From Liolophura sinensis (Eukaryota > Mollusca > Polyplacophora > Chitonida > Chitonidae): a stretch of DNA of 64,000 bases. Made by a program: the position numbers and the translations under genes. The notes beneath the pieces are model-generated. The model saw nothing but the letters and a program-made list of their open reading frames with translations. It had not been told where the DNA came from and did no database searches. The DNA lies in assembly GCF_032854445.1 (NCBI RefSeq), contig NC_088303.1:19227501-19291500 (forward strand). The letters are read 5' to 3'. The number at the start of each line of letters is the position of its first letter. The stretch's first letter is position 1. Positions 2,759 to 61,129 of the stretch are shown here, in pieces.

Positions 2759-3081
2759 GTTAGCAGGTGTAAATGAAATAAACCTTTCCGAAACCGAAAG
2801 TGTAGAGTTACCAGAGGTAAAACTTGTTAATGATCTTGTACACAGCACAAACGCATGTCATCTTCTCGGAATAAACGGATGCAGTTACATCCTCTTTTGC
2901 TGTTTTTAGTCCAAAGTTTGCCATGTCAAGCTGGCACCTGAACACACCTCCAAATGATAAGTTAACTCCCTTGATTTGAAAGCTGTGCGAGATCGCATGC
3001 GCAGCGGAAACGCCGCCATACGCGAAAAGCCAAAGTCATCACACGTTTTTGAGTTTGCATATTTGTTTACAAGGTTTCAAG
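2759..3081. promoter_or_regulatory. Divergent DHTKD1/PSMD7 intergenic region, probable shared promoter
   Basis: About 320 bp separates the two start codons, which face away from each other. The part nearest PSMD7 is locally CpG-rich. It carries GCATGCGC (around 2995-3003), which resembles an NRF1 half-palindrome, and GCCGCCAT (around 3012-3020), which resembles a YY1 site on the opposite strand; both are common at housekeeping promoters. I see no TATA box at a sensible distance. Promoter function is inferred from position and motifs only. Confidence 0.5.
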
Positions 3082-6000
3082 ATGCCACCCACAGAACAGG
3101 CAGAAACAAAACCTATTCCAAAGGTGGACACTAAGATTTCCAAGGTTGTGGTCCATCCTTTGGTGCTTTTAAGTGTGGTAGATCATTTTAATCGTATGGG
3201 AAAAGTCGGAAATGTCAAAAGAGTCGTCGGTGTGCTGCTTGGTTCTAACAGACAAGGCGTCTTGGATGTGTCAAATAGTTTTGCAGGTAATACTCGATGA
3301 TAGATCTCTGTGTCATTAACTCTGAACTTAATCTGTCTCTGTCACATTCCTCGTCTGGGCCTCTCGGGCTATATGTGAAAGACTACGGCCCTGAAGAGAT
3401 GAGCCGCAACTGCTGTGAAGGTTACTGAACGTTAAGGCAAGTATCAGATATTTTGGAGAAATTAACAAAACGTTTAATTTAACTGACCATTAGGCTACAC
3501 AAGATTATCCCTTCACAACCGCAACTGTTCCGACGGTTACTGAACTACCTGGTTTAAAGCCCGAAACCTGCTCCATTCAAAAGGGGGCGGGCTTCCTCAG
3601 TGTTTCTCCTTCACGCAGAGCGCAGTTGTAGGGACGCCTGGCCTAAATTGAACTGTGCAGGGACGAACTTCAGGCTTTGAACCGGGTAGTATTTGCAATG
3701 ATGGCACATATGTAACCGTCGGAACATTTGCGGCTATAAAGGGATAATCTTATGTAATGGTAAGTTGAATTAAACATTTACGTAATTTCTCCAAAATATC
3801 AGATACTTGCCTTAACATTTAATTGTTGAACAGAAAAATAAGGTTGGTCCATTCCTCAAAGTTTTTAGCCTTAATAGTCCTGCCTTGTCTTCTTGTTTCA
3901 CATTCATCCAAAGGCTTAGTCATTCTCTCCTTGTTCTTGTTAGCTCCTTGTTAGCTTTTTCCTGGTAAGTTCATTTTGAACAATAAATTGATGATCTGCT
4001 TACTTCACGCGCATCATGAACTAGGATGTACATTTGTGACTAAAACCTGGTCAATATTAAAAACCAATAGTCTGCATGTGTAAAAATGTGATCTTATTTT
4101 CATTTCTCTTTAGATTCACATTGTGTAACCATAAATTTGGGTTAATCTTTGTCAAATCTGCTTTTTTTCGGTGCACTGGCAGCCTGTCATAGTAAGGAAG
4201 TCGAACATACTAAAGTGAGGTTCTCATACCTAGCCTTGTGGAAATGTGCCACATTATTTGGCCCCATTGAAAAAAAATGTCTTGCTTCTCACAGAATGTG
4301 AATACCTCTATGTCGGATCTAACTACAACAAAAACAGTCTTTTGTAAAGTAAGTAACTTTCTGAGAAAGTGGCTTGGGGGATAGAAAATTATTTTTCTTA
4401 CCGTTGATCGGAACCCTGTTTGTCATAACCCAGGAGTGGTTACAGATTAAATTGCAAAAAAAAGATCAGATCAGATTTACGCTGCTGTTGCAGAACCTTA
4501 CACAAGATAATTCTATTATGAATGATCCTAGCGATGTGTTTCGAGAGAAATAAACAATAATTTGTAATGGGTTTTGAGAGTGTTTACCTGGTTTACCATT
4601 ACATAACCAGCGACAACAGAGTAAAAGATCACTTGGTCAGGTACAGATAGAGCCTTTGGCACCTGACCTCAGATGGGGCTAGAACAGATAGGGTGGATAA
4701 GCTATTGAAACTCTTAATGATATTAATTTGAGCAACTTCTGACTGCAACTGCATGCCTATCACTCAGTATATTCTGCAAGTCAGAAAATTCAGACTATTA
4801 GCGGAATGAAGTAGGTGTTAATATTCACTCTAAAATGGCAACATATGCTAGTCCTCTACAATATGACTGTCTATATCTTTGACTTGACACTGAGTCATAC
4901 AAACACATTACATATTCCTGTTGGAAAGGCATGTAAATGTGCCACTTTGGTCTTCATTACAACAACATGCCTCCCATAATATTGCCCAAAATACCTATAA
5001 ATTTGGTACCGGGGTAAAGCCAAACTGCTGCTGTTCCAAGGCTTTTTGTTGATAAACCCAAATATGTGCTCAGATTTTGATTGCACATCCCACTGGTTGT
5101 CCAAGATACTGCCTAGATCCATGCGTGCACAGGTCAATGTCGTGTTTATAACCCCCAGCTTGACAAGAGACCTTTGGTAAATAACCACCAGTCGCCACTG
5201 ATCAAACATGGACGTCAAGGAAATATAGATGGGGCTTATCGAGATGCACTTATCAGCAATGTTTGTACAAAATTTTCTAGTGACTTTGCCCTGCTTTGGT
5301 TTTAAACTTGATATTCTGAGTTTGGGATAGAATTTTTGCTTCAATGCCCATGTCATTCAGTACTGACTACTGATTGTTGTGACATTATCTTATGGGATAG
5401 TAATTGCTGTGATTTGCACGAGAAGTGTTTTGGCAGTATGAGGTACGTGATGTATACTTAGATCTAAGTAAACATAAGCAAGGATTATTGTGGGAGGATC
5501 ATGCATGGTTAGTACTCAGTACCATGTTATTGCTCTCTGTTTCAGTTCCATTTGATGAAGATGACAAAGACAAAACAGTGTGGTTTTTGGATCATGATTA
5601 TTTGGAAAACATGTATGCCATGTTTAAAAAAGTCAATGGTAAGATATCAGTCCTGCAAGAGGCTTTCAGATAATGCTGCTCATGTGCTTAGATTGTAACA
5701 TGACGTAAGACTTAGAGCTTAAGCAATAAACAACGAAGGAAGTTGTTGACAGGAGGAGATACATGAATCAACTAATGGATTCATGATCATACATTCAAAC
5801 AATCTACAATAGACAGAAAGTGAAAACCTTCTGTTGGCCCTCTCTATTTGTGTCTGTTAATGAAGTCTTCCTTAAAGGAAATGCTAATTTTTTGAGTTGG
5901 TTCAGCAAAATGGAAAAATGAGTTACCATTTGAAAGCGAATTCACTAAACCAAATACAAGTTTACTTTCTATCGACTATGTATTATAAAATGTTTGTAAT

Positions 6001-9000
6001 TTGCCAGGATCTATACCGCCGAACTGAAATTACATGGGAGGCTTTATAATGACATTACAGTGCCGTGTAATTTTGCTAAGTATCATATCTCCCATTGTCT
6101 GTACTACGCAAATGGGGGTAGGGGGTGGGCAGAGGTCCGTAACCTTGTCATAAAAGTCAGTTTGAGCCATGCTTCCAAATATTGCGGCTGGAGTGAGTGG
6201 TTGGTCGAAGGGAAACTCCGCTTAAAACTATACATTCAATTGTCCACTGAAAGTTAGACAGGTCAGTAAGTCCTTAACTTGACGTTTAAAATAGCAGCAA
6301 ATATTTTTTGCCATTGGCAATATGTCTCTTTAAAGTTTATTTTGATCATGAAATTGAGGTGCCTCCATGCCAAGGAGGATAGCTTACCCAGGAGCCTCCC
6401 ACCAATGCGGTCGGTGTGAGTTCAAGTCCTCTCCTTTGGTACTTGAGGATGTCTGCCAGCAACCTGCGGATGGTCGTGGGTTTCCATTGGGGTCTGCATG
6501 GTGTCCTCGCACCATAATACTGGCCGAAAAATATTATTGAGTATGGTGTAAAACACGAATGAAATACTAGTAAATCAATGAATAAATTATGAAATTGGAA
6601 AAAGCATTACTCGCATGTAATTCTTGTTTTTACAAGTGATACACAGATTTATCTGGTCATTGACACTTTTTAAATTCCAATGAAATTTCATCTCAAAGAC
6701 TGTTTTGAAGAACAAGGCAAAAACAAATGCATAAAACTGATATTTTGCAATAGATACAATATTTATGAGTATCATTGTTCTTGACAATTGCCACATGGTT
6801 GTCTTTTCAGCAAGAGAAAAAGTGTTGGTTGGTATCACACTGGACCAAAGCTAAATCAGAATGACATTGCCATCAATGAACTGATGCGGCGGTACTGTCC
6901 TAACTCAGTAAGTCATTTTCATCGTTTTTTGGCCTTCATAAGCTTTCATATCTTGAAACATTTGAGAAAAAGTTTTTTTTTTAAGGTATTGAAAAAAAAA
7001 AGACATGACCCAGTGGTAAATGTGAAACTGTAGAAGTATATAACTTTTCATAAATTTTTTAACATGTATAGAAGGCATTAAATTTGATGAACTATGTGTA
7101 TAGTTATATGGTGATACCATATTGTGTAAAAGTGAAGTTCTGAAATGAAAATTAGGGTATCACTCACTTGTAACAAGCGAAAATCTCTTTCGCTATAGAT
7201 GGCAATTAAGTAATACTGTAATCACAATCTTGAATTCTCCTGCCATGATGCTGGTCGCCGTCGTATAAGTGAAATATTCTTGAGTACAGCATAACAACAC
7301 CGATCAGAGTAATAAATCAGTGAATTGTTACGTGTGGCTGACTACAGCATTTTGTTTGAATTTTTACAGCTCCTGTCCCTGAGCAGCTGTTACCCTAACC
7401 TTCACATGTCCTAAATAAAATTTGTCTGGGTCAGAAAGGCAGATAAGTGTTTGCGTTTATAATATTTATATAATGTGAATGCTATTATCAGGTTTAATAT
7501 CTTACAGGTACTGGTTGTAATAGATGCGAAACCAAAGGACCTAGGACTCCCTACAGAAGCATACTATTCTGTTGAAGAAGTTCATGACGTAAGACATTGG
7601 CTTACATCACAGGAGTTCACCCCTTTTCTAAGAATAACATCATGAATATTGATTTTGAAAAGTTGGTAAATTTTGTTAAAAAAAAGGGTGGATATTAAAG
7701 TACATTTTGGAATGAGTAAATAAAGAACAGTTCCAATAAAATTTGCATCTGAAGCATTGAAAATACAATGGCTGGAAATGGAAGTTTCTATTTCTAAGTG
7801 CTATCAGTTTGTGGACAGATTTCAAAGTGGAGCCAATTTCTGGTTGCAACAGGAAACAACCTGAAAGATTTAATGTCAGACTTAAACATTGTAGAAGTTG
7901 CACTTCCTATGTTCATCCCAAAGAGATTGTGTGTGTGTGTGTGTGTGTGTCTCACTTGCTTCTTGTTATTAAAATGCTGCACTTAGTTTATATGAAATGG
8001 CGGAGCTTGTGAATGTTTGTTGTGCAGGATGGAACACCAACTTCCAAAACCTTTGAGCACATTCCCAGTGAGATTGGAGCAGAAGAGGCAGAAGAAGTTG
8101 GAGTTGAGCATTTATTAAGGTTTGTCATTCATGCCTTTCTGCAATATTCAAGTAAATTACATTGTCAGGAGAAATGATCTTGACTGGTGTCTTGTTTCAC
8201 ACAGCCATTGGAAGCTAACTTGAATCCACCATAATGTCTGGAATACCAGCAATATTTCTTGAATTATAGGCTTTTTGGTAAGTAAGGGAATAGCATATAT
8301 GTAATTTAATAAGTAATTATCAAACCAGATTTTTGGCAATAAATCATTCTGCACAAATAAGATTTTTGCTGTTTTAGTATAGTTCTAATAATTACTTTAT
8401 GCAAAATATCAGCCTTGTGTGTGCATGTGTTATGTGACCAAGTTGGTTAGAGTACCAGTGGGGCTCAATGGCCCAGGAGACTCTCTGCAATGTGGTGGCT
8501 GTGAGTTCAAGTCCAGCTCATGCTGGCTTTCTCTGTGGCTTTACATGGGAAGGCCTGTCAGCAACCTGTGTATGGTCGTGGGTACCCCCAGAGTCTGTCT
8601 GCTATTCTCTTTCCATAATGCAGGCCGCTGAGTACAGCGTACAACACCAATAAATAAATAAATGAAGAAGGCCGTTGTTTTTTTCTGAGCACTCTATTTG
8701 ATTCAACATGTAGACCTGATCACCATCATGGACTTTAAAGAATTACAACAGTCGAATCCTTTAAGAGATAATCACTACGGCTGTGTTTTCCGGTTGCAGG
8801 GACATTAAGGACACAACAGTGGGCACATTATCACAGCGTGTTACAAGCCAGCTTATGGGTCTTAAGGGTCTGAACCTTCACATTAATGACATTGGATCAT
8901 ACCTGGAGAAAGTGGCATCAGGACAGCTGCCAATCAACCACCAAATCATATACCAGCTACAGGACGTGTTCAACCTCCTACCAGATGTCAACCTGCAGCA

Positions 9001-9301
9001 GTTTGTCAAGGCAGTGTATGTGAAAACCAATGATCAGATGTTGGTTGTATACGTGGCCTCCCTTATCAGATCTGTCATAGCCCTACATAACCTGATCAAC
9101 AACAAACTACAGAACCGTGACGCCGAGAAAAGTGAAGGAAAGGATTCAAACAAGGACAAAAAGAAAGACAAGGAAGAAAAGGGAGATGGTGATAAGAAGA
9201 AAGATGGAGACAAAGATAAGAAAAAGGATGATGACAAGAAAGACACTGACAAAAAAGACGCAAAGAAGGAATCATCTAGTAGTAAAGGAGCAAAGAAGTG
9301 A
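3082..9301 (+). CDS. PSMD7: 26S proteasome non-ATPase regulatory subunit 7 (Rpn8), six coding exons
   Basis: Lid subunit of the 19S regulatory particle; its MPN domain pairs with the deubiquitinase Rpn11 but lacks the full metal-binding motif (family knowledge). Coding exons: 3082-3286, 5546-5638, 6811-6907, 7508-7588, 8028-8119 and 8800-9301 (stop TGA), all with GT-AG borders. The protein opens with about 18 extra residues, then [73 protein letters not shown] and the helical [14 protein letters not shown] to [15 protein letters not shown] region. It ends in a long K/D/E-rich tail. Exon lengths sum to 1070 nt, one short of a multiple of three: the break lies in exon 3 at the A5 run 6817-6821, where a sixth A would restore [12 protein letters not shown]. 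Restored length is 356 residues against 324 in human. An AATAAA signal lies at 9549-9554. Confidence 0.96.
3436..3811. mobile_element. Miniature inverted-repeat element flanked by TTAA, PSMD7 intron 1
   Basis: The 376-bp element sits between two TTAA tetranucleotides (3432-3435 and 3812-3815). Its ends are inverted copies beginning GGCAAGTATC, and the match continues with few changes for more than 30 bp, then more loosely for over 100 bp per arm (for example GATTATCCCTT on the left and its complement on the right). It has no coding capacity. TTAA target duplication is the hallmark of piggyBac-type transposition, so this is probably a non-autonomous piggyBac-like MITE. Confidence 0.75.
6369..6583 (+). 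mobile_element. SINE family A copy, PSMD7 intron 2, degraded head
   Basis: It contains the family A body (GAGCCTCCCACCAATGCGG, GTGAGTTCAAGTCC, CAGCAACCTGCGGATGGTCG, GTGTAAAACAC) with a poor 5' head. GAGTTCAAGTCC resembles a Pol III B box (GGTTCGANTCC), so the family is tRNA-derived. Confidence 0.7.
7231..7323 (+). mobile_element. SINE family A 3' fragment, PSMD7 intron 3
   Basis: Only the last part of the family A unit remains: the CCATGATGCTGG block, GTCGTATAAGTGAAATATTC and an AATAAAT-type tail. Confidence 0.65.
7928..7951. repeat. (GT)n microsatellite, PSMD7 intron 4
   Basis: About eleven uninterrupted GT dinucleotides about 80 bases upstream of PSMD7 exon 5. Confidence 0.9.
8438..8664 (+). 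mobile_element. SINE family A copy, PSMD7 intron 5
   Basis: It has an A-box-like GTTGGTTAGAG, the GTGAGTTCAAGTCC B box, GTGGCTTTACATGGGAAGG, CAGCAACCTG and an AATAAATAAATAAAT tail. Short open frames across it are part of the repeat, not genes. Confidence 0.75.
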
Positions 9302-16000: not shown

Positions 16001-19000
16001 AATTCCCACACCAATGCTGGGTTTGAACCCACACCTCTGGTGTTCAAGCAATTGAAAAGCAATCACCTCCGGTCATTAGACCAAAGCCTGTTCCCACAAG
16101 ATTATGGGCTAACCCACAACTGTACTTTCCCTCTTCAGTTGTAAATGATTATCACTTGCAGTGTAAAGTTGTTTGATCACTGGTTCAAATGTGAACAGGG
16201 CCTCTTCTGTAATAAAACAATAAGGGTCTTCCCACTCTTTATGAACATCTGTAACTGTGTGACTTAAGGGAGCTTCTGACAGAGTTTCTAACACTTTCAA
16301 ATCATTATACCAGGAAACTTGTTTGAACACAAATTATGTATCTTCAGAAAATGTCACAAACAGAGATGTAAGATGTGCGCAGTTAAGGTACACATGCAAA
16401 TGTACAATTGCAACACATTAATATGATAAAATACTAAAATACGCACCTTAAAAAAATCAAAGAATGATACAGATTTGACAAGTTTTCCATATTTTTCTTC
16501 ATTTTTGGGAAAGAAGAACATGTGTGTGAGAGCAGCATCTATAAGGTCCGGGTGTTTCCTGGCCATGACTGTCAGTTGCAGCCTTTCTTCTCTACTATCA
16601 CGACCTCGCCAAAATGCCTTCTGTGTCTTCTCCTCCCACTTTGGTCCTGTGTTAGCTTGCACAGCGAAGAGGTCCAGGGTGGTTCTGAAAGGTGCAGAAA
16701 CAAATTGGCAATATGTGACATGGCGACCTTGGTGGGGTTTGAATCAACGACTCTGAGGCCTGGGCTTACTTGCCAATGCATTAATTCCATCATATTGTAT
16801 GGAGGAGTCTCTGATATCATTTTTTGATAGGTCGAATTAATACAAATCTTCCCAACTTTTCAAGCACTCACTCTGTTACACAGTAAGCTGGCATCACAAT
16901 ACAGTGTAGATCTGATGGGTCACACAAGTACAAACCTTCCCAGCATTTCAAGTGTTGACTCCGTCACATCATAAGTAGGCATGGCAATATCTCTGATGGG
17001 TCATACAAGTACAAACCTTCCCCGTATTTCAAGTACTGACTCCATCACATCGTATGTAGGCACTACAACATCTCTTGTATCATTTGATAAGTCATACAAG
17101 TACAAACCTTCCCAGCATTTCAAGTGTTGACTCCATCACACAGTAAGCTGGCATTACAATATCTCTGACGAGTCATACAAGTACAAACCTTCCCAGCATT
17201 TCAAGTGTTGACTCCATCACACAGTAAGCTGGCATTACAATATCTCTGATAGGTCATACGAGTACAAACCTTCCCAACATTTCAAGTGTTGACTCCATCA
17301 CACAGTAAGCTGGCCTGACAATATCTCTGATAGGTCATACGAGTACAAACCTTCCCAGCATTTCAAGTGTTGACTCCATCACACAGTAAGTTGGCATTAC
17401 AATATCTCTGATGGGTCACACAAGTACAAACCTTCCCAGCATTTCAAGTGTTGACTCCGTCACATCATAAGTAGGCATTACAATATCTCTGATAGGTCAT
17501 ACGAGTACAAACCTTCCCAGGATTTCAAGTGTTTACTCCATCACACAGTAAGGTGGCCTGACAATATCTCTGATAGGTCATACGAGTACAAACCTTCCCA
17601 GCATTTCAACTACTGACTCCATCACACAGTAAGTTGGCATTACAATATCTCTGATGGGTCACACAAGTACAAACCTTCCCAGCATTTCAAGTGTTGACTC
17701 CGTCACATCATAAGTAGGCATTACAATATCTCTGATAGGTCATACGAGTAAAAACCTTCCCAGCATTTCAAGTATTGATTCCATCACATCGTATGTAGGC
17801 ACTACAACATCTCTTGTATCATTTGATAAGTCATACGAGTACAAACCTTCCTAGCATTTCAAGTGTTGACTCCATCACACAGTAAGCTGGCATTACAATA
17901 TCTCTGGTGGGTCAAATGAGTACAAACCTTCCCAACATTTCAAGTGCTCACTCCGTTACACAATAAGCTGGCATTACAATATCTCTGATGGCTCAAATGA
18001 GTACAAACCTTCCCAGCATTTCAAGCGTTGACTCCGTCACATCGTATGTAGGCATGACAATATCTCTAGTATCATTTGAGCCACACCAGGAAAACAAAGG
18101 TATAGGACTCTCACTAATCTTCCTCTTCTCCAATGGCCAGTCACCTAGATTTGTGAAAAATTCCATGTTGGGCAGAGTCACCTGTAAAAGACATACAAAA
18201 TTTTCTAATTAAATGATTAAGGCAAATTAAAGAGAATTTCTGAAGCAAAACATACAAGTTTCACTTAAACTTACTCTGGTAAAATGAGAGTTGCAAGTGA
18301 ATTTAAAACCTCACATGTAAAAAAAAAAAGCAGTTTTAGGGACAAATTAAGGTTATAAAATATTCCTTTTGGGACGTAACTCACGTTTTTACAGGAGGAT
18401 ATTATCTGTTGAAATGAGTAATGGTGACGTTTGAAAATTTAGCTCAAATACTACTTGTATGTGTTCCTTTACAGTATTTATAATGTACTAAAGTCTGCAT
18501 TTCCTGGGATTTGCAAAAGGACAATCAATGATAGAATCACATTTTGTAGTCTGTGCAGAATACCCTGCCATCTCAGAGACAACCTGTGGATTACACATCA
18601 GGTCACATACACTTCAACCATCCTTACCTTTCTGGTAATAGACAAAAGGATGTTATCCATAAACATCTTGAAACCTACATGCTGACCATATGTTTTTCTG
18701 TAAATCTGAAATTTAATGAACAGGTTGAAATATGTTATGGTTCAGTTGATAGGTCTAACATCATCTGTAAGATTTTCAAAAAACCAGAGTGCCAGAGAAA
18801 ACCAGCATGCCAGGAAGAAACCAGAGTAACCAGAGTGCCAGGAGAAAACCAGCATGCCAGGAAGAAACCAGAGTAACCAGAGTGCCAGGAGAAAACCATA
18901 GCATCAGGAAGAAACCACTGAACTCTGACAGATATACTGACAGAGACACTGCTGAAACAGTGAAAACTGGCATGGAAAATGCTACCTCAATGAACAAGGT

Positions 19001-28000: not shown

Positions 28001-31000
28001 CTTGCTGTTGTACATTATGCTGACCTTCATGTCCTTTGTGGACTCGTACAGTCTGTACCGAACAATGTATGACCCGTCATGGCGGTCCAGGACCTGTATC
28101 CATGCTCGCACGCCTGCGCCTGTCTGTGAGTTGTACAGGTTGACACTAAACGCCTTGTCCCCGACTGAATCTGTCAGGCTGAGGATACAACATAATAATC
28201 TATCAGTTAAAGGATACAATGTTCAACAAAATACATGTATATATACAAGAACATGTTCACAAAACTGGTCCAGTTATTACAAAGCCCTCTTATGTTAGCA
28301 TAATCTTCAGTGTGACATCACTTAATGAAAAGTAGAAAATTCATCTCTACTGTTCAATGATGCAAAGAGAAAAACAAAATAAAAAAACTGTATGTCACAG
28401 TTGTATGCTGTAGAATGGTAGAATGAATGATGGAAAGAAAAAAGAAGCACATTTAATTCTCAGTTGGGACTCTTAGAAGTGAACTTAGAAGGGAAAAAAG
28501 ATGGCCACAGGACAACATGTTAGAGTAATTGGCATCTCAATCAAGACAGCAATAAGGCTGATTCCTGTTTCAATAACATGTCTCTGATATTGGTGTAAAA
28601 ATAGGTCATGCAAAGGAAGTATGTACACCTTTACATGTATCTACCACAACAGCCAGTCACTGTATGCATGTCTGCTGGCAAACTAAAGGAGCAGCCAAAC
28701 AAATGTCAACCAATGACAAGTGAACAGATCTGCTACCTGAGAGGCAAATTTAGCCTTGAATTTCACAAATCATATGTTGTTCATAGCACAATGCAAAGTC
28801 ATGTGATACTTGTAAGGTTTCACACAAGCATGTGGAAGTAATGTGTTCACTTGTGCCCTTGACATACATTTTCATATACCTGTATAAGTGGACAGCAGAC
28901 AATGGTGTCTTCGGTCACAAAATGTACTTTAAAGGATACATGAAACACATGGTTTGTATTTCTTAATACACAGTATATAATGTGGCCTAACCTAGAAAAG
29001 TACAAAAAAGCTTCTCAGCTCTCTTCTTCCCAGAATGAAAATGGCTTTAAACTACAGTTTTCCTAAGGTCCTGGCAGTGGTCAGTCTGGAAATTAAGCAG
29101 CATACTGTAGTGATGTCAACAGTGATAGCTGTCAAAACAACTTTTTGGGGGCAAGGGCCCCACATGGGCCTGTGTTGAGAGCTGGGTTTGCATTCCCAGT
29201 ATGTTCGCTGATGACGTTTTATTTCCAACCACTTACCGCAAATATGCGTAAAATAGTGAGTTATTAAGAAACATAAAATATGCCTCAAAAATGAAATTTT
29301 TTTTCTATTTTTTTTTTGCCAAATCTGCTTCATTTTTCTCAAAACCATGCATACTCTTCATTTTATAGTACCTTTTGATGTATCCTGTTAAGACCTACCC
29401 TCCTTCTGAGAAAAATTAGACTGAATACTTAGGAAGCCTAACAGAACGAATATGTCAATGTGGTGCATAAAGGGTTATGTCGAATGAGACTGTAGTATAG
29501 GTGTAATTGAAGTGTTTTCAGAACTAAAACCTTTGATAGTTTCTGCCTGATGTGATGTGAAAATATTGCTGAATGTGACGTTAAATCAGCCAGATAGGAC
29601 ATTAAGGCAATTTGGCTGAAATGACATGGAGAATATAGAAATAGATGAGGTTATGTCAGCAATGACTGATGTGTTGGCCTTCATACTGGTACAGTACTGG
29701 TATTGTAATAATTAGCTATAATTTTAAGAAAGCAGTCTTCATTTTCTTGACTCTTTAATTACCATTTAACCTTTACTTTTAAAAATACACGTACATGTGA
29801 AGGCTTTAGAACTGGAGTAGCTCTTAAACCACTAATTCGTATCTGCAATACCTTTTTTTTCAGACTTTTGTAATTATTGAATAAGTATTACATTTTAAAT
29901 TCCAACCCAAACAACTAGGTATTATTTCATAGGGCGAAATAAAATTCATTCTATCATTTCTTTGCAAAAAAGTACATGTAGGATATCAGGGCAGTGATAT
30001 ACATAATGTATTCAAATTGAAAACTTTTAGGCTTACACCTTAATAGGAGAGAAAAATGAATTCAGTAGGAAGGCTGTCAATGAACATAATTAATTATTCA
30101 TTGATTCTACCCATATCACATCAGTAGGCATCTGCGCAGACAAGAAGGCCTTGTTAGAAAGTTTTATGCTTGTAAATACCTACTGTACATATATCATTCT
30201 ACATGTACAGTATTTGCATGTATTTTTCCGTTGTGACTCAAGGTGCAGAAGCACACGGCAGTGTTACAAGCACAGTGCATTAGAAGGTTGGGATGCACAC
30301 TAACAGTGTTGGAAGAATGGTGCATCTGCAGGTGGGGGATTCTTAGCACACCGTGATGTTAGAAGAATGGTGCATCTGAATATGGGGATTCTTAGCACAC
30401 AGTGGTGTTAGAAGAATGGTGCATCTGCAGGTGGGGGATTCTTAGCACACAGTGGTGTTAGAAGACTGATGCATCTGCAGGTGGGGGATTCTTAGCACAC
30501 AGTGGTGTTAGAAGAATGGTGCATCTGAAGGTGAGGATTCTTAGCACACAGTGGTGTTAGAAGACTAGTGCATCTGCAGGTGGGGGATTCTTAGCACACA
30601 GTGGTGTTAGAAGACTGATGCATCTGCAGGTGGGGGATTCTTAGCACACAGTGGTGTTAGAAGAATGGTGCTTCTGAATATGGGGATTCTTAGCACACTG
30701 TGGTGTTAGAAGAGTGGCGCATCTGCAGGTGGGGGATTCTTAGTACACAGTGGTGTTAGAAGAATGGTACATCTGAAGGTGAGGATTCTTAGCACACAGT
30801 GGTGTTAGAAGACTGGTGCATCTGGGTGTGGGGGATTCTTAGCACACAGTGGTGTAAGAAGACTGGTGCATCTGGATGTGGGGGTTCTTAGCACACCGTG
30901 GTGTTAGGAGAATGATGCATCTGAAGGTGAGGATTCTTAGCACACAGTGATGTTAGAAGAGTGGCGCATCTGCAGGTGGGGGATTCTTAGCACACAGTGG

Positions 31001-33214
31001 TGTTAGAAGAATGGTGCATCTGCAGGTGGGGGATTCTTAGCACACTGTGGTGTTAGGAGAATGGCGTATCCGAAGGTGGGGATCATTAGCACACAGTGGA
31101 GTTAAAAGAATGGTGCATCTGAAGGTGGTGATTCTTGCCACACAGTGGTGTTAGAAGAATGGTGCATCTGCAGGTGGGGGATTCTTAGCACACTGTGGTG
31201 TTAGGAGAATGGCGTATCCGAAGGTGGGGATCATTAGCACACAGTGGTGTTAGAAGAATGGTGCATCTGAAGGTGGGGATCATTAGCACACAGTGGTGTT
31301 AGAAGAATGGTGCTTCTGAAGGTGGTGATTCTTGCCACACAGTTTTTTTTAGAAAAAGAGTGCACACTGTGGAGTTTGAATTTGAGTTTCTTAACAATTT
31401 TTCAGTCATATGAAAACAAAGGTGGTTTTACCACAATAGTGCATCTGACTGAAAAATGGGGATTTTTAGCACAGTGGTCTTGGAAAAATGGTGCATCTGA
31501 AGGGAGTCACACTACTTTGTTAGAAGAAAGGTAAATGTATGTTGTAAGTACATGTACCGCAAAAAAACTTTTCCAAGCTGACCTTCAAGTCAATCAGCAT
31601 AGCCCCAGGTATACGGAAACATTTAAATCATTAAACGTCTGGTATGTTTCAGGAAGCTGATTGTTAAGCTATATATAACACACTTACCCATATGCTCATT
31701 AGTGTCAATTTATGCATCAGCTTCCCTGTTGTATTAACATACGTACATATCACAACTTATCAATGAGAGAGGGGGAAGAAATCCCAGGGTTTTACACTGA
31801 CCGTTGACATTCCTCTTTGCACAGTACCTTCACATAACATTGTTAACAGTGCTCAGTTCATTAAATTACCACCCACTTGTTGTGCATGATTACTCTAATG
31901 TCTGCCCACTTAATTGTATATTTAATACACATGATGACAAAAATTTCAAAAAAGACAAAAATGTATCATTCACTAAACAGTAAATCCACCCTGGCCACCA
32001 CTGTACAAACTTTCGTCTGTTAATTAATTTATATACTATAATTTCTGACTGTTATTCATCATAAGATTAAGGCGTACATACAATTTTACAAATGTCCACC
32101 AAATTTCAAAATATACCTTTTCATTATTAATTGTATGATACACTTTGCAGTACAATTGTCTGTTATAGGCTGTTCTGCTTGATTAACTCTCAGGTCATGT
32201 CCCAAATGGTAAATCAAACAATTAATTCAAGACATGCGAATCAGTCAAGCATAACAGCCTGTAGCCGACCACAAGGTGGATATCATGTTACCATTGTTAC
32301 TTGGTGCAGAATACCAGTTTGGAGAATTGCATACAAGGAAATAATAAACCAAGTATATAGTATATTGATAATAACAGATGCATGTATACTTACGTAAATT
32401 TGACATATAAAATGTTTAAAAAAGAAATATGACGGTTTGAACAATTAGTACCAAGATTTCTGGTACATTAACAGATCTTAATTTAAAATGTGAATTGCAA
32501 CACTTTCAAATTTTGCAAAAATGTCAAGTCTTCACCTGTTATTGTGTAAGATTGTGCAGGTTTTCTTCATGAAGACATTTTAGTGTAAATCTCCATAATA
32601 GTCAGATATATAATTTATTAGAAATTTTCAAGTTGAGGTCTTCATACATGTGGTAGAGTGATGTCAATTCATTGAAGAACCAGCCTTTCACAAAATAGAA
32701 CATCTGAGAAGTGGCTAATCCCCTAACAAAAGGATCAATCAATGTGGTTTCCAACTGCCAGTTTATTTACTTTATTTGACTGGGGGCTTCAGACATATAA
32801 TATACAGAAAATATATGTAGATCTACATGTAGGTTGAATGTCTTACAGAAAACTGTAACACAATCATCAGCAAGTAATTACTGATCATTTCCAGTTTCAA
32901 CTTTCAGATCCAAAAGGTTAGACTTGCATTTTGGTTCTACAAAAGTATTAAACTTTCTTGCATTAAAAACTCATAAAGTGTACACAGTTTCAACACAAGA
33001 CAAAATCTCACTTTTGGTTATCACTGTCCACAGCCTGGATGAAGAAGTACCGGACTGGCAGAACGACACGGGCAATCAGACCCGGTCCCCAGATGAGGCA
33101 TTTATCAGCATCCACATCCCTCTGTTGCTCACTTGCACTCAAACTGGGACAAGACGACAGCAAGAAAACTCCTACTCCTACTGTCAAAACAACTTTCCAA
33201 GGTGTTTTCATCAT
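13085..33214 (-). CDS. POGLUT2: Protein O-glucosyltransferase 2 (KDELC1 type), ten exons, ER lumen
   Basis: ER glucosyltransferase that adds glucose to serines of EGF repeats such as Notch (family knowledge). Exons in transcript order: 33012-33214, 27970-28178, 20780-20991, 18628-18705, 18009-18181, 16447-16684, 15646-15855, 15109-15198, 13908-14018 and 13085-13102. They total 1542 nt, 513 residues, with every junction in phase. Residues 1 to about 26 form a signal peptide ([15 protein letters not shown] core). IWGPGL and [10 protein letters not shown] open a filamin-like domain (about 40-136) that includes [18 protein letters not shown]. The CAP10/GT90 domain carries NLGDWPLE (245-252), [18 protein letters not shown] (264-281), [51 protein letters not shown] and [11 protein letters not shown]. 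The C-terminus KKKRKEEL ends in KEEL, a KDEL-type retention signal. POGLUT3 is the close alternative; one invertebrate gene may represent both. Confidence 0.93.
13288..13342 (-). mobile_element. SINE family A 3'-end fragment next to an (AT)n run, POGLUT2 intron 9
   Basis: An (AT)n stretch is followed by ATTTATTTATTTATTTGAATGG and GTGTTTTATGCC, the complement of the family A tail. The rest of the unit is missing. Confidence 0.55.
13690..13892 (-). mobile_element. SINE family A copy, POGLUT2 intron 9
   Basis: The reverse complement carries the complete body: GAGCCTCTTACCAATGCGG, GTGAGTTC, CCAGCGGATGGTCGTGGG, ACCATAATGCTAG and a long TTTATTTATT-type (plus strand) tail. It lies about 15 bp from exon 9. 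Confidence 0.75.
15928..16092 (-). mobile_element. tRNA-derived SINE head, POGLUT2 intron 6
   Basis: On the minus strand it reads GGTCTAATGACCGGAGGTGA and then GTGGGTTCAAACCCAGC, a near-perfect Pol III B box. It lacks the acceptor-stem pairing and 3' end of a functional tRNA, so it is a SINE head rather than a tRNA gene. Confidence 0.55.
16715..16795 (-). mobile_element. tRNA-like SINE fragment, POGLUT2 intron 5
   Basis: Minus-strand CATTGGCAAGTAAGCCC and GATTCAAACCCCACC resemble A and B boxes of a tRNA-derived head. It lies between exon 6 and the 81-bp exon-tail array. Confidence 0.45.
16843..18084 (-). repeat. Tandem array of POGLUT2 exon 5 3' end plus splice donor (about 14 intronic copies, 81/91-bp period)
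   Basis: The anchor CAAACCTTCC (the donor region on the plus strand) or a close variant recurs at 16843, 16931, 17012, 17103, 17184, 17265, 17346, 17427, 17508, 17589, 17670, 17751, 17842, 17923 and 18004. The last is the real end of exon 5. Spacing is 81 bp except 88 once and 91 twice. On the gene's strand each unit holds the last 57 or so coding bases of exon 5, the GGAAG/GTTTGT donor and a short intron stub. Some units (for example the one donor-anchored at 17427) encode exactly the exon's [19 protein letters not shown]; most encode an AYCVMES variant. The array is in register with the exon, so it grew by tandem duplication from the exon's end. Confidence 0.92.
18779..18910. repeat. 47-bp minisatellite, POGLUT2 intron 3
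   Basis: CCAGAGTGCC recurs at 18784, 18830 and 18877, with CCAGCATGCCAGGAAGAAACC between, giving just under three copies of 46-47 bp. It lies about 75 bp upstream of exon 4 on the gene's strand. Confidence 0.85.
19075..19240 (+). mobile_element. Diverged copy of the GCATATGAAA element family, POGLUT2 intron 3
   Basis: TTGAAAAAGCAACTTTCAG, then GGTCTTCACAAAAACGTATAA and ACTAATGCTCTGAAAATATG match in order the copies at 23105-23335 and, inverted, 24990-25200. The terminal repeats are eroded. Confidence 0.5.
20385..20690 (+). repeat. Dispersed repeat, copy 1 of 2, POGLUT2 intron 3 into exon 3 flank
   Basis: GTACTGTATCATGTGGTTTG, then CCAATCACTTATCTCA and TGTTCCAGAGGGACA, match in order the segment 22245-22520 (CTACTGTATCATGTGATTTG and so on). 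The two copies are clearly diverged. Family unknown; no terminal repeats seen. Confidence 0.5.
22245..22520 (+). repeat. Dispersed repeat, copy 2 of 2, POGLUT2 intron 2
   Basis: Counterpart of 20385-20690, with the same order of short matching blocks. It is preceded by a T-rich run at 22158-22186. Confidence 0.5.
23105..23335 (+). mobile_element. MITE-like element (ACCTTTTCGCATATGAAA end), POGLUT2 intron 2
   Basis: It starts near AACCTTTTCGCATATGAAA and ends near CTTGCAAACATGCAGAAAGGTT, which is a loose inverted match to its start. An inverted copy lies at 24990-25200 and a degraded one at 19075-19240. No coding capacity. Confidence 0.55.
23447..23788 (-). mobile_element. tRNA-derived SINE family B copy, POGLUT2 intron 2
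   Basis: On the minus strand the head reads CCTAATGGTTAGAGCTTCCG with an A box (TGGTTAGAGC). The 3' end reads CATATGACTAAAAAATTGTG and then GTAAAACGTCAAGC, the tail also seen at about 43000-43038 and 44360-44413. Confidence 0.65.
24294..24566 (+). mobile_element. SINE family A copy, left arm of an inverted pair, POGLUT2 intron 2
   Basis: It contains GAGCCTCGCACCTATGCAG, GTGGGAAGGTCTGCCAGCAA, GGTTGTGGGTTTCCCC, GTCGTATAAGTGAAATATTC and a tail AATCAAATAAATAAAC. It abuts the minus-strand copy 24567-24815 tail to tail. Confidence 0.75.
24567..24815 (-). mobile_element. SINE family A copy, right arm of an inverted pair, POGLUT2 intron 2
   Basis: Reverse-complement partner of 24294-24566. It shares atypical blocks with it (TATCTCAGGAGCCTC and GAGCTGAAGCTGACTTCC) that other family A copies here lack. 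Confidence 0.75.
24899..24916. repeat. Poly-G run
   Basis: About 18 consecutive G, length-unstable and error-prone; no other feature attached. Confidence 0.8.
24990..25200 (-). mobile_element. MITE-like element, inverted copy of 23105-23335
   Basis: Its reverse complement runs from ACCTTTTCGCATATGAAA through TTTCAGGGCTTTGCAAAAG to CCTTGCAAACATGC, parallel to 23105-23335. Its own ends are inverted relatives: TACTGTAATTTTTCAACC on the left and, complemented, TATACTGTAATTCCTGTACC on the right. Confidence 0.6.
25425..25555. repeat. Short tandem repeat of TATGTCATA/GTCTGTC blocks
   Basis: Blocks such as GTCTGTCTATATGTCATATG and GTCTGTATGGCATACG recur every 29-32 bp for about four to five copies in POGLUT2 intron 2. 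Confidence 0.8.
25789..26172. mobile_element. MITE with AAAGGATACATGAA ends, POGLUT2 intron 2
   Basis: The left end reads TTTAAAGGATACATGAA and the right end reads GTTTCATGTATCCTTTAA, an inverted match of about 15 bp. The internal sequence (AAAAGCTTCTCAGCTTTC, GGTGATAGCTGTCAAAACAA on the complement) matches the copy at 28928-29388. Non-coding. Confidence 0.7.
28928..29388 (+). mobile_element. MITE with AAAGGATACATGAA ends, POGLUT2 intron 1
   Basis: It begins AAAGGATACATGAAAC and ends GATGTATCCTGTTA, an imperfect inverted end. Internal blocks AAAAGCTTCTCAGCTCTC, GAAATTAAGCAGC and GTGATAGCTGTCAAAACAAC link it to 25789-26172 and 61731-62035. Confidence 0.65.
30244..31345. repeat. 49-50-bp minisatellite, about 22 copies, POGLUT2 intron 1
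   Basis: The unit reads GTGTTAGAAGAATGGTGCAT, then CTGCAGGTGGGGGATTC or CTGAAGGTGAGGATTC, then TTAGCACACAGTG. Copies differ by point changes and 1-2 bp length changes. The array fades into weaker copies to about 31500. No sustained open frame. Confidence 0.93.
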
Positions 33215-47406: not shown

Positions 47407-50400
47407 ATGGAGCAGGTATCCGAACTAGGCGATGCCCTCCCATGTACATTTGAACCAGCTATTCACATTGAAGTCTGCCAGAATCCCTGCAGGTGTGTCA
47501 TGTGACATTATACTCATTACCATTAGTAGTGTTAAATATTTATTACATGTACTTGATTGATCAAAGGCATTATATTACAGTATATCCCAGCATTCTGTTA
47601 TGGAAGCTTTTACGTGTATTTAACAAACCAAATTTAATACATATACATGTAAGAAAGCTAGTACTATATGTTTACTGGCATTAGTGCATACGCAATACAC
47701 TACTGTAAATGGGAAGTAAATAATGTCCATGCATTTGTTTTCTTATTGAAATTAGACATTTAGGTTGGTTGATTTTTTTTTTTTTGGTATTACGATATGA
47801 GTTATTTTTTCAAGAATATTTCACTTCTACAATGGCGGCCAGTATTATGGTGGGAGGAAACCGGGCAGAGTCTGGGGGACACCCATGACATTGTAGGTTC
47901 CTGGCAAACCTTCCCTTGTATGACTGGAAAGGCCAGCCTAAGCTCACAGCATTCGCATTGATGAGAGGCTCCTGGGTGATTACTATATTATGGTTGTCAA
48001 CTAGAAAACAGGAGACGTCATACATCCTCCTTACAGTGCCGTTTTCTTTGATTCTTTGATTGGAATCATGTTACCCATAATTTTAATATTAGATTGGTTG
48101 AGACAGAGTGTTTGTGTTTTCTGGGGCCTCATCACCATGATCTAGGCATTCAGTAAGATTTCTTTAAAAATTTTACTAGTGATGACAGTAATGTGAAGTG
48201 AATTGAATGTAGAGAGCGACAAATGCATTGTAAGGAGTATGGACATGATATGCTGCAGGGCCTACTTTGAGTCATTATTTTACTCTGACTCTGTTTATAT
48301 TTCTTGCAGCACTGCTAGATCAGGAGTTTTGAAAGAACATGTGCTGCCATTCATAAGAAGGAGAAAAACTGCCTATGGTGATGTAGCTTTTCGAGAATTT
48401 GATGATCCCTTTCTACAAGAACATGTTCAGTCAATTTCAATTACAGACACTGACATAAGTCAGCCTGACAGAAAGGTAAACCTTGCCATCTTTCATACCT
48501 GTGTTGTTTTTGAAAGTTAATTATTAACAATGCCTTGTAGAATTTCACGCATGTAGCAACCAAAGATTTCATTAATATAGGCTCACAATACCATAGGTCA
48601 CCATTGTAATCAACTTTATAGTTTACAGCCTAGATATAAGCTCAGGCTTTTTTTATGCAGATTTATCGCATATTTTTTTTTAGCAGAAGCTGTGTATATG
48701 TATAAAGGGTAACTTCTATTGGCAGATCACCAGAGTAGAATATTTGAATTTCACACGTTCACCTTGAACTACTATTGTGTGTTTATTGTGTGAGGGTCTG
48801 TGCTTGTCTCAGTTAGAGGTCAATGTTGTTTATTACAGGCTTAAAGCTCTCACTGACTTGCACAGTTTAAACACTAGATCACTGTCACTGCCACTCAAGG
48901 CATCTTTTCACTAATAAGACTTAAGTCGTAAATCTTAGGCATAAGTCGTAAATTTCACCAGTCAGTATACAATGTGGCATAGGTATTACTGTTTTGTGAA
49001 AGGGTGGTATATTGTAAGCTTTAACTTAGACCTTAACTTGTGAAATGGAGGCCAGACTCCAGGATCATGACGCAGTCATACATTTAAGTCAAAATTTCAA
49101 TCATTAAACCGGGTATGTTCCTTTCTGATTTTTTAGCTAAAATTTATTTTACTGTAACTTACCCAGAATTTATGTTGTCAAGCAAGATTTTGACAATATT
49201 TCATAAGAAATAACAATTTTATCGATTATTAATTTTTGATTTGAAATTTTGACTAAAGTCCAAGATCGCTTCCCGATCCTGGAGCCTGGCCCAGAACTAA
49301 TGAGGTTATGTGTCCAAATCCAGCTGTCACTTTTTCCACTTTCTGCCCCCATAAGCTTGACTGCTGTCTTATTTAAGAGGGAAATTCTTTAGTACACCAA
49401 TAAATAAATAAGTGTTACAGGTTTAATTCTGTCTGAATGGCTTTATATGTGGTCATACATGTATGTGTTAACTGTAGGCAATAGACCTGGGTGTGGCTCA
49501 GCTGGAAATCCATGTTGTCCTGCTACATGAGGATGGTCCTGGATCAGAGGAGCTTGAGGAGGAGGACTTATCAGCTGCCACACACTGGCTCCTCCCCGCT
49601 AAGGAGTTCTACAACCTCTGGGACTCCTTAGTGTTTGATGAGAATATCAAGGGACAGGTAACAGTCACATATGTTTTCTTGCCCATGGACATGTATTTTC
49701 TGCATTTCTGTTATAAGGGCCTTGTTATCAGTGTGTGAAACTGAATATTTCTGTGTAATTTTCGACCTCTAAAGCACTTTTGTAGTGGAATTTATGTGTA
49801 TACTTTTTTTAATTAAAATGACCCTACAATGATTTATTCGTGTCACTAAAGAAGCAAGCTCCATAAAACAGTTCCAAGTTATTTTTCTGCACCCCATAGT
49901 TCTCTCAGAATGTTTCAAATATAGGTCACAGAGGTGGCTGAAAGGTTGAAGAATTAGGGGATGTTTACCAGTGTAAGGATTTCTGAAAAGTCCTACATGT
50001 AGCTTTTAATTATTTGCTCTTGTACAAGTATATGATTTTCTAAAGCAATGTCATACCAGTTATTTGTACGTCAAGTGAGAGATTTTCTACTTGAAAATGG
50101 ATATTTTAAAGTTTATAAAGTTTACACAAATATGTCGAAACTGTCATTCTAGTACATGTGCACCAGGAGAGTCGATTATCATATGTCTGAACTAACACTC
50201 ATTTCTTCGATTAGCATAAATGCATGGAATGCTTATTTGGGGTTAATGAACGTACTATTTTTCTTGGGCACATGTTTCAGCTGTTACAGTATGCCATGAC
50301 TACATTGCTCTTCTCAGACAAGGCTGTCAATACTGACGTGATATCATGGAATAGAGTGGTCCTACTTCATGGTAAACGACATATGTATACTCTTACAAAA

Positions 50401-53400
50401 TGTTTTGAAACTCTTTTTCAGCACTGAACTTGGGTAAAACATACATTATGACTTAAAAATTATTTAATTCACATATGATGCAAGTTCCATAGCTTTTTAC
50501 CTTCAAGAGAGTCAAGCATTTTTTTTTATGAGCATATCAGAAAAAGCAGTCTGTGTAATTAATAAACCAAGGGCCTTACTGGCGGAGATGGTTATGGCAC
50601 TGGTTTACCACGACTGGCAGGTCAGTGACATCAAATATTCATATCCAGCTCTGGCTGTTTAATCTGCGGCTTTAAGTCAGGAGGTGTTGTCAGGCGTCTG
50701 GAGAAGGGCTTTCCTCTACCCATAACCAAGGGCCTCACTGGCAGATATGGTTATGGCACTGGTTTACCACGACTGGCGGGTCAATGAGATCAAATGTTCA
50801 TATCTAGCTCTGGCTGTTTAATCTGTGGCTTTAAGTAAGGAGGTGTTGTCAGGCGTCTGGAGAAGGGCTTTCCTCTACCCGTAACCAAGGGCCTCACTGG
50901 CAGATATGGTTATGGCACTGGTTTACCACGACTGGGGGGTCATTGACATCAAATATTCATATCCAGCTCTGGCTGTTTAATCTGCGGCTTTAAGTCAGGA
51001 GGTGTTGTCAGGTATCTAGAGAAGGGCTTTCCTCTATCCACAACGCTTAATGCTGTCATAAATGAAAAATTCTGCATTAAACACCAACCATGTCCATAAA
51101 ATGAACATTTTCTTTAACATGGTACCAGAAAAATTGTTTATTAAAGTGAAAGAAATTATAGCAAACCGTAATTATGATTATTGAATTTGGATACCAGCAA
51201 TATGAAACGTCATTTTCTCAGCTGTTATTTTCACTTTTGGGAGATATTCTTTTGAAGTTGACTGGTGTAATATCTGTTTTTCAATGATTGTCCCACTTAA
51301 TTTTTCATTGTCTTTTTCTTAATTTCCTCATGCTTGTTCATGTAGTACATAAAATGTAGATACTGTTCACCAGCATGTCCTCGGTGACATCACGTACATA
51401 TAAAATGTTGATTTCCCCTGACAGGTCCCCCAGGCACAGGGAAGACGTCTCTGTGTAAGGCCCTGGCTAACAAGCTGTGCGTGCGGCTGTCTGACAGATA
51501 CACCTACGGTCAGCTGATAGAGATCAACAGTCACAGCCTCTTCTCGAAATGGTTCTCTGAGGTTTGTCTATTACAAAACACTAAAACTAAATACAAGTTG
51601 GAAATAATTTTTACTTTGGTCTAGGATGTAGTGACAGCTATTCGCATTACGATGGATAATATAACATTTCACCCAAAAAAAAATGCATATTTACAGGCAA
51701 ATAAATGTCATAAAATATTACTTTTTGAGCTGAAACTTGCATTTGTCCAGGAGTATGTCACCTTGCCTTCCAATTAAACCTCAAAATACCATTATGAGAT
51801 GAAAAGGACCCCCAGAATCAGCCAAAATATGTAACGGTATAGTGATCATGGGCAAAATTTTACTTAATTTACCTTTACCAAAGGCAGTCGTTTACCAAAC
51901 AAGTCGGCCCCTGTCAGAATGCTGTTTGATGCAGGACACTGTCCTTGTCCTACTGCTTGCTTCCACATTTGCCAATATGTACAAAAGTTACGTCAGAAAG
52001 TCAAAATGCAGAATCCTTAAGTAGCTATTCCAGCGTCCGTGTACATCTTAAAAGCAAGGTTAACTGATAGAGAACAAGATATTTTGAATGGTTTGTGTGA
52101 ATTGTAACAAAATGCTGTTGTATTAAAACTGCCATGGTATGTTTCGGAGGACAGTACAGAAACAAAAGCTTCCCGTACTTTCCCATTTTGCCTGATGGGA
52201 TGACATGCAAGAACACTTGGCATCACCCATTGCTGACGTACAGCCGCAAATGGCGACGCATTCAATCCCATGACATCATTCCAGCATAACAACTTTAATC
52301 GTATCTGCCTGGTTTGTTGTCACATGGGGAATATTATCATGTCACATAAGGAAAACTTTTGGTTTTTGATAACTCTTCATTTGTATAGGGTTAAGTAGTG
52401 TTATTTACCATAAATCCTGTTGAACCTGTTACCATGGTGTTAGCTCTGTTACATAGGGCATCCTTCATATATTAATATTTCTGCCTAGTTTCCTTTGGGA
52501 CTGATGTAGCACTTTAATTTGACGAGGAGCAGGCCAGACTTGTGTCCCTTCTGTGTCAACATGACTAAGCTGGAAAGAGAAAAAAAATGGAATGTTTTGT
52601 TCAGGTTCACAAGTTTGGTTTATTCAGCATTTTGGGTTTGCCCTTAATTTGCTGTCTTACCAAGATATCACATCTATCTGCTCATGAGAAAAGCTGTTTT
52701 ACTGCTTCTGTCAATTGCCTGTCAAGTCTTTTCATTGTTTAATCATAGGGTGTGGTGGGGTAGTGGATAGAGTGTTAGAGTGTCCACCTTGCAAGCAGTA
52801 CTTGTAGATCCAAGGCTCAATTCCAAGTCAAGTCATATGACTAAGATTTCAACTAGATACTACAGTACCTCGCTTGGTGCTCAGTATAACAGGAGTAGAC
52901 TATGTAATGGTCAGTATAATTTGACTGGGTCGAGCGTCTTAACTGGTATCCTCGGCTACAAGGTAACACTGTCATATGACTCATATGTTGTTGAAAGCGA
53001 CATAAACTTCAATCGGTGAAACAAAATACATTATTTAATCAACCTGATTGTTAATAAATTTGGATTGATGGTATGTAAATTCCATGATGTATTGACCTTG
53101 CAGGATGTTATACAGATAAGCTATTCCCTCTAAAAAAAAGTCACCCTGGCCCTGATTGAATATCTAAGACAAAGCATGTTTTGCCTTCAGGCCAAGTCTT
53201 TAATTGGCTGAAATCCATCAGTTCTGCTTTCTTGTCCACAGAGTGGCAAGCTGGTGATGAAGATGTTCCAGAAAATCCAGGAGTTAATAGATGACCCAGA
53301 AGCTTTAGTCTGTGTTCTGATAGATGAGGTAACAGCAAGCAATAAATAAAATTTGGGTAGCTTTGACCTAGGCAGCTATACATGTCAAAATCCAGCAGCC

Positions 53401-60984: not shown

Positions 60985-61129
60985 GATTGATCTCCGAATT
61001 ATAAAGTTCTTGTACATTTATCAGAAACTTTTGTATATTTTAAAATTGTAAATCTGTTAGTAGATGAAAGCCTGTGTAAGCCCCCCTAAATAAACACTTC
61101 TTAGCCATGGTAGGGGCTAAAATTCCGTA

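Follow-up and report, generated by a model that had tools for sequence, protein, structure and literature searches.

An array of exon/intron-boundary repeats in intron 5 of the Liolophura sinensis POGLUT2 gene, probably a minisatellite grown from the end of exon 5

Most of intron 5 of the POGLUT2 gene of Liolophura sinensis is taken up by a tandem array whose units join the head of the intron to a copy of the tail of exon 5. We are largely confident that this is an exon/intron-boundary minisatellite, which grew by slippage or unequal exchange and is spliced out with intron 5. The window analysed is a stretch of 64,000 nucleotides, C9:19227501-19291500 of the genome of this species (609 Mb, 632 contigs), and coordinates are given in window positions throughout.

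The gene model comprises POGLUT2 exons 2-9, without exon 1, located between 28178 and 13878 on the minus strand; the exon numbers are those of the original prediction. Exons 3-9, when joined, give a single open frame of 379 residues, whose translation scores 510 bits against PDB 9w47, 'Protein O-glucosyltransferase 2', and the joined exons match the Pfam GT90 family (E 2e-102). Exon 2 matches a filamin repeat (E 2.9e-09). By sequence similarity, the host gene is POGLUT2, as had been proposed from the sequence together with its GT90 domain, since a filamin-like domain precedes the GT90 domain and POGLUT2 is the best match. As a paralogue control, 7,001 nt were excised around a second GT90 locus (C7, 4 of 7 matches), and no TRF array was found there.

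TRF reports the array at 16911-18067 with period 81 and 14.0 copies, and also at 16911-18075 with period 243 and 4.7 copies, and its head-to-tail units of tens of bases place it among the minisatellites. Cutting from donor to donor resolves it into the end of exon 5 followed by 14 intronic units (Table 1). In each 81-nt unit, 24 nt from the intron head are joined to 57 nt from the exon 5 tail. A unit thus covers a coding exon's end together with the beginning of its intron, donor included, and the array begins with the real exon end. Both the position of the array in intron 5 and its construction from exon tail and donor, in register with exon 5, are thus as first described. The period of 27 codons that had been attributed to it applies to the 11 units of 81 nt, but units 3 and 12 have 91 nt and unit 14 has 88 nt. 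The decayed fifteenth copy was recognised by alignment to unit 3, with 50 of 75 alignment columns identical (E 2e-06). In genome searches, which can miss sites, a unit query gave 14 matches and an exon 5 query gave exon 5 itself and 13 partial copies, none of them away from this locus.

Table 1 Features of the POGLUT2 exon 5 array in window coordinates (a slash marks a splice junction)
Feature	Position	Strand	Remarks
POGLUT2 exon 5, array source	18009..18181	-	173 nt; acceptor CTTTTACAG/GTG, donor GGAAG/GTTTGT
Intron 5	16685..18008	-	1,324 nt; array = 1,161 nt (88%)
14 tandem units, intron head + exon tail	16848..18008	-	11 x 81, 2 x 91, 1 x 88 nt
Unit 3	17756..17846	-	91 nt; 10 nt more exon than 81-nt units
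Unit 7	17432..17512	-	exact 19 exon residues encoded; tail identical to unit 4 tail
Unit 12	17017..17107	-	second 91-nt unit
Unit 14	16848..16935	-	88 nt, irregular, frameshifted; tail 72% identical to exon; next donor ATTTGT, GT lost
Decayed fifteenth copy	16770..16847 (end approximate)	-	alignment to unit 3
Exon 6	16447..16684	-	acceptor CACCTTTCAG/AAC

Identity to the tail of exon 5 ranges over 72-93% among the 57-nt tails of the 14 units, and the array, shuffled 300 times, gave a best match to that tail of 54%; a resemblance no better than chance, which would have spoken against the original prediction, is therefore not what is observed. Both 91-nt units match exon 5 over its positions 103-173 (71 nt; 89% and 86%), and the 81-nt units match it mostly from position 115. 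Because the two 91-nt units retain 10 extra exon bases, the simplest reading is an ancestral unit of about 91 nt from which the 81-nt form arose by a 10-nt deletion. The 27-codon period therefore need not reflect coding, and appears to be a by-product of that deletion. Decay is greatest at the intron-side end of the array, in unit 14 and then in the fifteenth copy. The units closest to exon 5 in sequence are units 4, 7 and 13 (93%); as these are not its nearest neighbours in the array, there is no sign of ongoing conversion from the exon.

Units 4, 5 and 6 are nearly repeated as units 7, 8 and 9, with 1, 3 and 4 differences per 81 bases (distance matrices with the 91- and 88-nt units trimmed to 81 columns). 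When the order of units was permuted, similarity at lag 3, one of five lags tested, exceeded that of the permuted orders (P 0.010); lag 9 gave P 0.035, and lags 1, 2 and 6 were not significant. The expansion that had been suggested for the array is borne out by this pattern, which fits a block expansion of units by slippage or unequal exchange, or else conversion between units.

The sequence GAAG/GTTTGT is exact in 13 of the 15 donors, the real exon donor included; unit 3 is followed by GTTTTT instead and unit 14 by ATTTGT, so that GT itself is retained in 14 of 15. Retention of the donor in nearly all copies thus holds as a description, but not as a sign of selection: among the 11 units of 81 nt (the 91- and 88-nt units are excluded from this test) 1 of the 9 donor columns is variable, the count for all columns being 26 of 81 (P 0.15), and among the 81 nine-column windows 14 are as invariant as the donor window. 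Conservation of the donor columns is therefore not significant, and the retained donors need no special explanation.

A similar distinction applies to the coding sense of the units. Of the two classes of units described originally, one, encoding the exact 19 residues of exon 5, is represented by 2 of 14 units (4 and 7) and the other, with PAYCVMES, by 4 of 14 (2, 9, 10 and 11); both exist, but the remaining units are mixtures. Human POGLUT2 has DIVMPTYD at the matching site, and its PTYD indicates that the ancestral state is kept in the exon-like class, the PAYC class being derived and strongly changed. Preservation of coding sense had been taken as a possible sign of selection, and this is not supported by most comparisons of the aligned units. 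In units 1-13 (unit 14, being frameshifted, was excluded from the codon counts) the variable columns are spread as 7, 7 and 8 over codon positions 1, 2 and 3, each with 19 columns. The 25 distinct variants, each counted once, comprise 8 synonymous, 15 nonsynonymous and 2 nonsense changes, and 8 of 25 does not differ significantly from the neutral expectation of 24% synonymous (P 0.35). Stops are borne by 2 of 13 units, against a mean of 1.87 in 5,000 neutral simulations, and unit 14 has a further stop in addition to its frameshift. Values of omega of 0.1 (P 2e-5) and 0.2 (P 0.006) are rejected, and values of 0.3 (P 0.066) and 0.5 (P 0.39) are compatible with the variants.

Two observations run counter to this. 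A minimum spanning tree linking the 13 units has 36 changes, of which 14 are synonymous, an excess over neutrality (P 0.049) that counts against a reading of pure drift, and the 4 differences between exon 5 and unit 4 are all synonymous (0.005 if neutral). The latter may be explained if some of these differences arose in the constrained exon 5; at the final site of the four one base is common to all 13 units and absent from exon 5. Judged from the variants among the units, strong exon-like coding constraint is rejected, and mild constraint is compatible with them.

These results bear on other explanations of the array. Its units could be alternative cassette exons of the form CAG/57 nt/GTTTGT, phase 2 at both ends, each adding 19 residues to the GT90 domain in frame. 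Of the 14 units, 13 have an AG directly ahead of the 57-nt tail (11 CAG, 2 AAG), 11 are free of stops and frameshifts, and GT is present at all but one of the donors. However, in the 17 bases ahead of the pseudo-acceptors the fraction of T (0.29-0.41) is below that at every one of the gene's 8 real acceptors (0.47-0.71), although pyrimidine content overlaps (0.47-0.65 for the pseudo-acceptors, 0.59-0.82 for the real ones); among the 7 donors of the gene, that of exon 5 already stands alone in having T at +3; and the candidate cassettes lack the strong coding constraint represented by omega 0.1 and 0.2. The units, if cassettes, would be spaced by 24 or 34 nt, and gaps of 24-34 nt are probably too short for unit-to-unit splicing. 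We consider the cassette explanation highly improbable, and give just as little credence to the related proposal that intron 5 is a reservoir of up to eleven phase-matched 57-nt cassettes supplying variant 19-residue GT90 inserts at a low level or in some tissues.

That the repeated donors act as decoys tuning POGLUT2 splicing or intron retention is, in our estimation, very unlikely. Such a role would agree with fifteen near-identical donor contexts, 13 of them exact, and with a real donor, GTTTGT, that is weak by consensus, but the donor columns are no less variable than chance allows (the 1 of 9 against 26 of 81 given above, P 0.15) and 14 of 81 windows are equally low. The copy number could instead be an artefact of assembly, through collapse or expansion of a longer or shorter array. 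The identical tails of units 4 and 7 and the near-identity of some blocks would agree with this, but most units are mutually distinct in the distance matrices and unique gene sequence lies on both flanks, so that an array of some length must exist; we hold an artefactual copy number to be very unlikely.

The minisatellite is consistent with the following course of events. A segment running from about 71 nt before the end of exon 5 to 20 nt into the intron would have been duplicated in tandem within the intron, and loss of 10 nt from the resulting 91-nt unit would have produced the 81-nt form, as the two units that retain those bases suggest. Replication slippage or unequal exchange would then have enlarged the array, in its latest phase by blocks of three units; the block structure is visible in the array, and the process is a probable one. 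The units would have drifted free of strong coding constraint, in agreement with the variant counts, while the copy in exon 5 stayed intact as part of the gene. Splicing presumably uses the first donor, which lies closest to the acceptor of exon 5, and joins it to exon 6, removing all copies. The frame of exon 5 continues past its donor as LGRFVLI and then reaches a TGA in the first intron head, so that a truncated product is to be expected from any later donor.

Copies of the repeat at an exon/intron boundary of human CBS can be used as splice donors. This 31-bp VNTR, c.1444_1467+7(16_21), comprises the last 24 coding nt and the first 7 intron nt in 16-21 copies of constant-length units with single-base differences, and varies between people, according to the cited part of PMC2630376. 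The POGLUT2 array resembles it, as there described, in that each unit holds an exon end and an intron start, with a donor in every copy, and on this shared architecture we file it with the exon/intron-boundary VNTRs. It differs in that the CBS repeat, on the same partial account (PMC2630376), is shorter and more uniform, whereas the POGLUT2 units are 81-91 bp, more diverged and arranged in a three-unit higher-order repeat; and copy number in CBS varies between people, whereas the POGLUT2 array is known from one assembly. A second CBS variant mentioned in that source, 844_845ins68, is a duplicated intron 7/exon 8 junction (PMC2630376); there too a splice junction is duplicated and one of the sites is used by the cell, but the opposite end of an intron is involved and a single copy has been added. 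In intron gain by tandem genomic duplication (PMC3443670), exonic sequence carrying a splice-like AG/GT is likewise duplicated, but the POGLUT2 duplication lengthens an already existing intron. Tandem exon duplications and mutually exclusive exons, as presented in the parts of PMC9013439 and PMC6071210 drawn on here, also place exon copies with splice sites beside the parent exon, whereas the POGLUT2 units are partial exons with acceptors that look weak, 24-34 nt apart and under no strong coding constraint. As far as a limited search of the open-licence literature shows, the POGLUT2 exon-tail array is unreported.

To obtain a base rate, arrays were collected in the window and 200 kb of flanking DNA (264 kb in all) with period at least 30, copies at least 2.8 and score at least 150, and merged. 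Only the POGLUT2 array among the 16 merged arrays overlaps a recognised coding exon (1/16), in a scan that exons without a Pfam match would escape. The open frames crossing array edges number 25, 2 of them from the POGLUT2 array, and the Pfam scan covered the other 23 and one of those 2; a sub-threshold FlxA match lies within repeat sequence. Exon-overlapping arrays are uncommon locally (1 in 16 over 264 kb), which does not imply that this one is unique.

The same window contains several other features. A TRIP13 gene (48197-61000, plus strand) has the Pfam TRIP13_N and TRIP13 C-terminal lid domains, and one of its introns carries a 72-bp array of ~61 copies (56189-60585), strongly G+T-rich on the plus strand; the adjoining TRIP13 exon falls outside the end of the array. 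The consensus of the 72-bp array has an 11-mer and a 12-mer in common with POGLUT2 exon 5 (CTGGTGTGGCTC and GGAAGGTTTGT). A comparable pair of words occurred in 1.8% of 3,000 shuffles and the idea of a kinship was post hoc, so that we regard the match as probably due to chance. Two further arrays lie at 30306-31343 (period ~49-50 (149)) and 50565-51044 (159 bp), and the Pfam scan of their three edge-crossing open frames found no domain. A plus-strand gene at 2980-9298 has JAB and MitMem_reg domains, and is probably the gene for the proteasome subunit PSMD7. On the minus strand, positions 1-2460 hold a 2-oxo acid dehydrogenase E1 coding stretch, presumably DHTKD1-like, with no evident introns and several overlapping frames; Pfam domains were found in 2 of its 3 scanned open frames. 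Only 4 weaker matches to it are listed elsewhere in the genome, from one C1 locus and 45-63% identical. It may be a frameshifted retrocopy, or the product of assembly indel errors.

The array indicates that an intron can be enlarged chiefly by copies of the end of its own exon, and that such growth yields in-frame candidate exons. If POGLUT2 is spliced as proposed, the first of fifteen donors is chosen although their contexts are nearly the same over 57 nt on the exon side and ~20 nt on the intron side; position, and not sequence, would then be likely to decide the choice of donor, and the array constitutes a natural test of the rules of proximity and exon definition.
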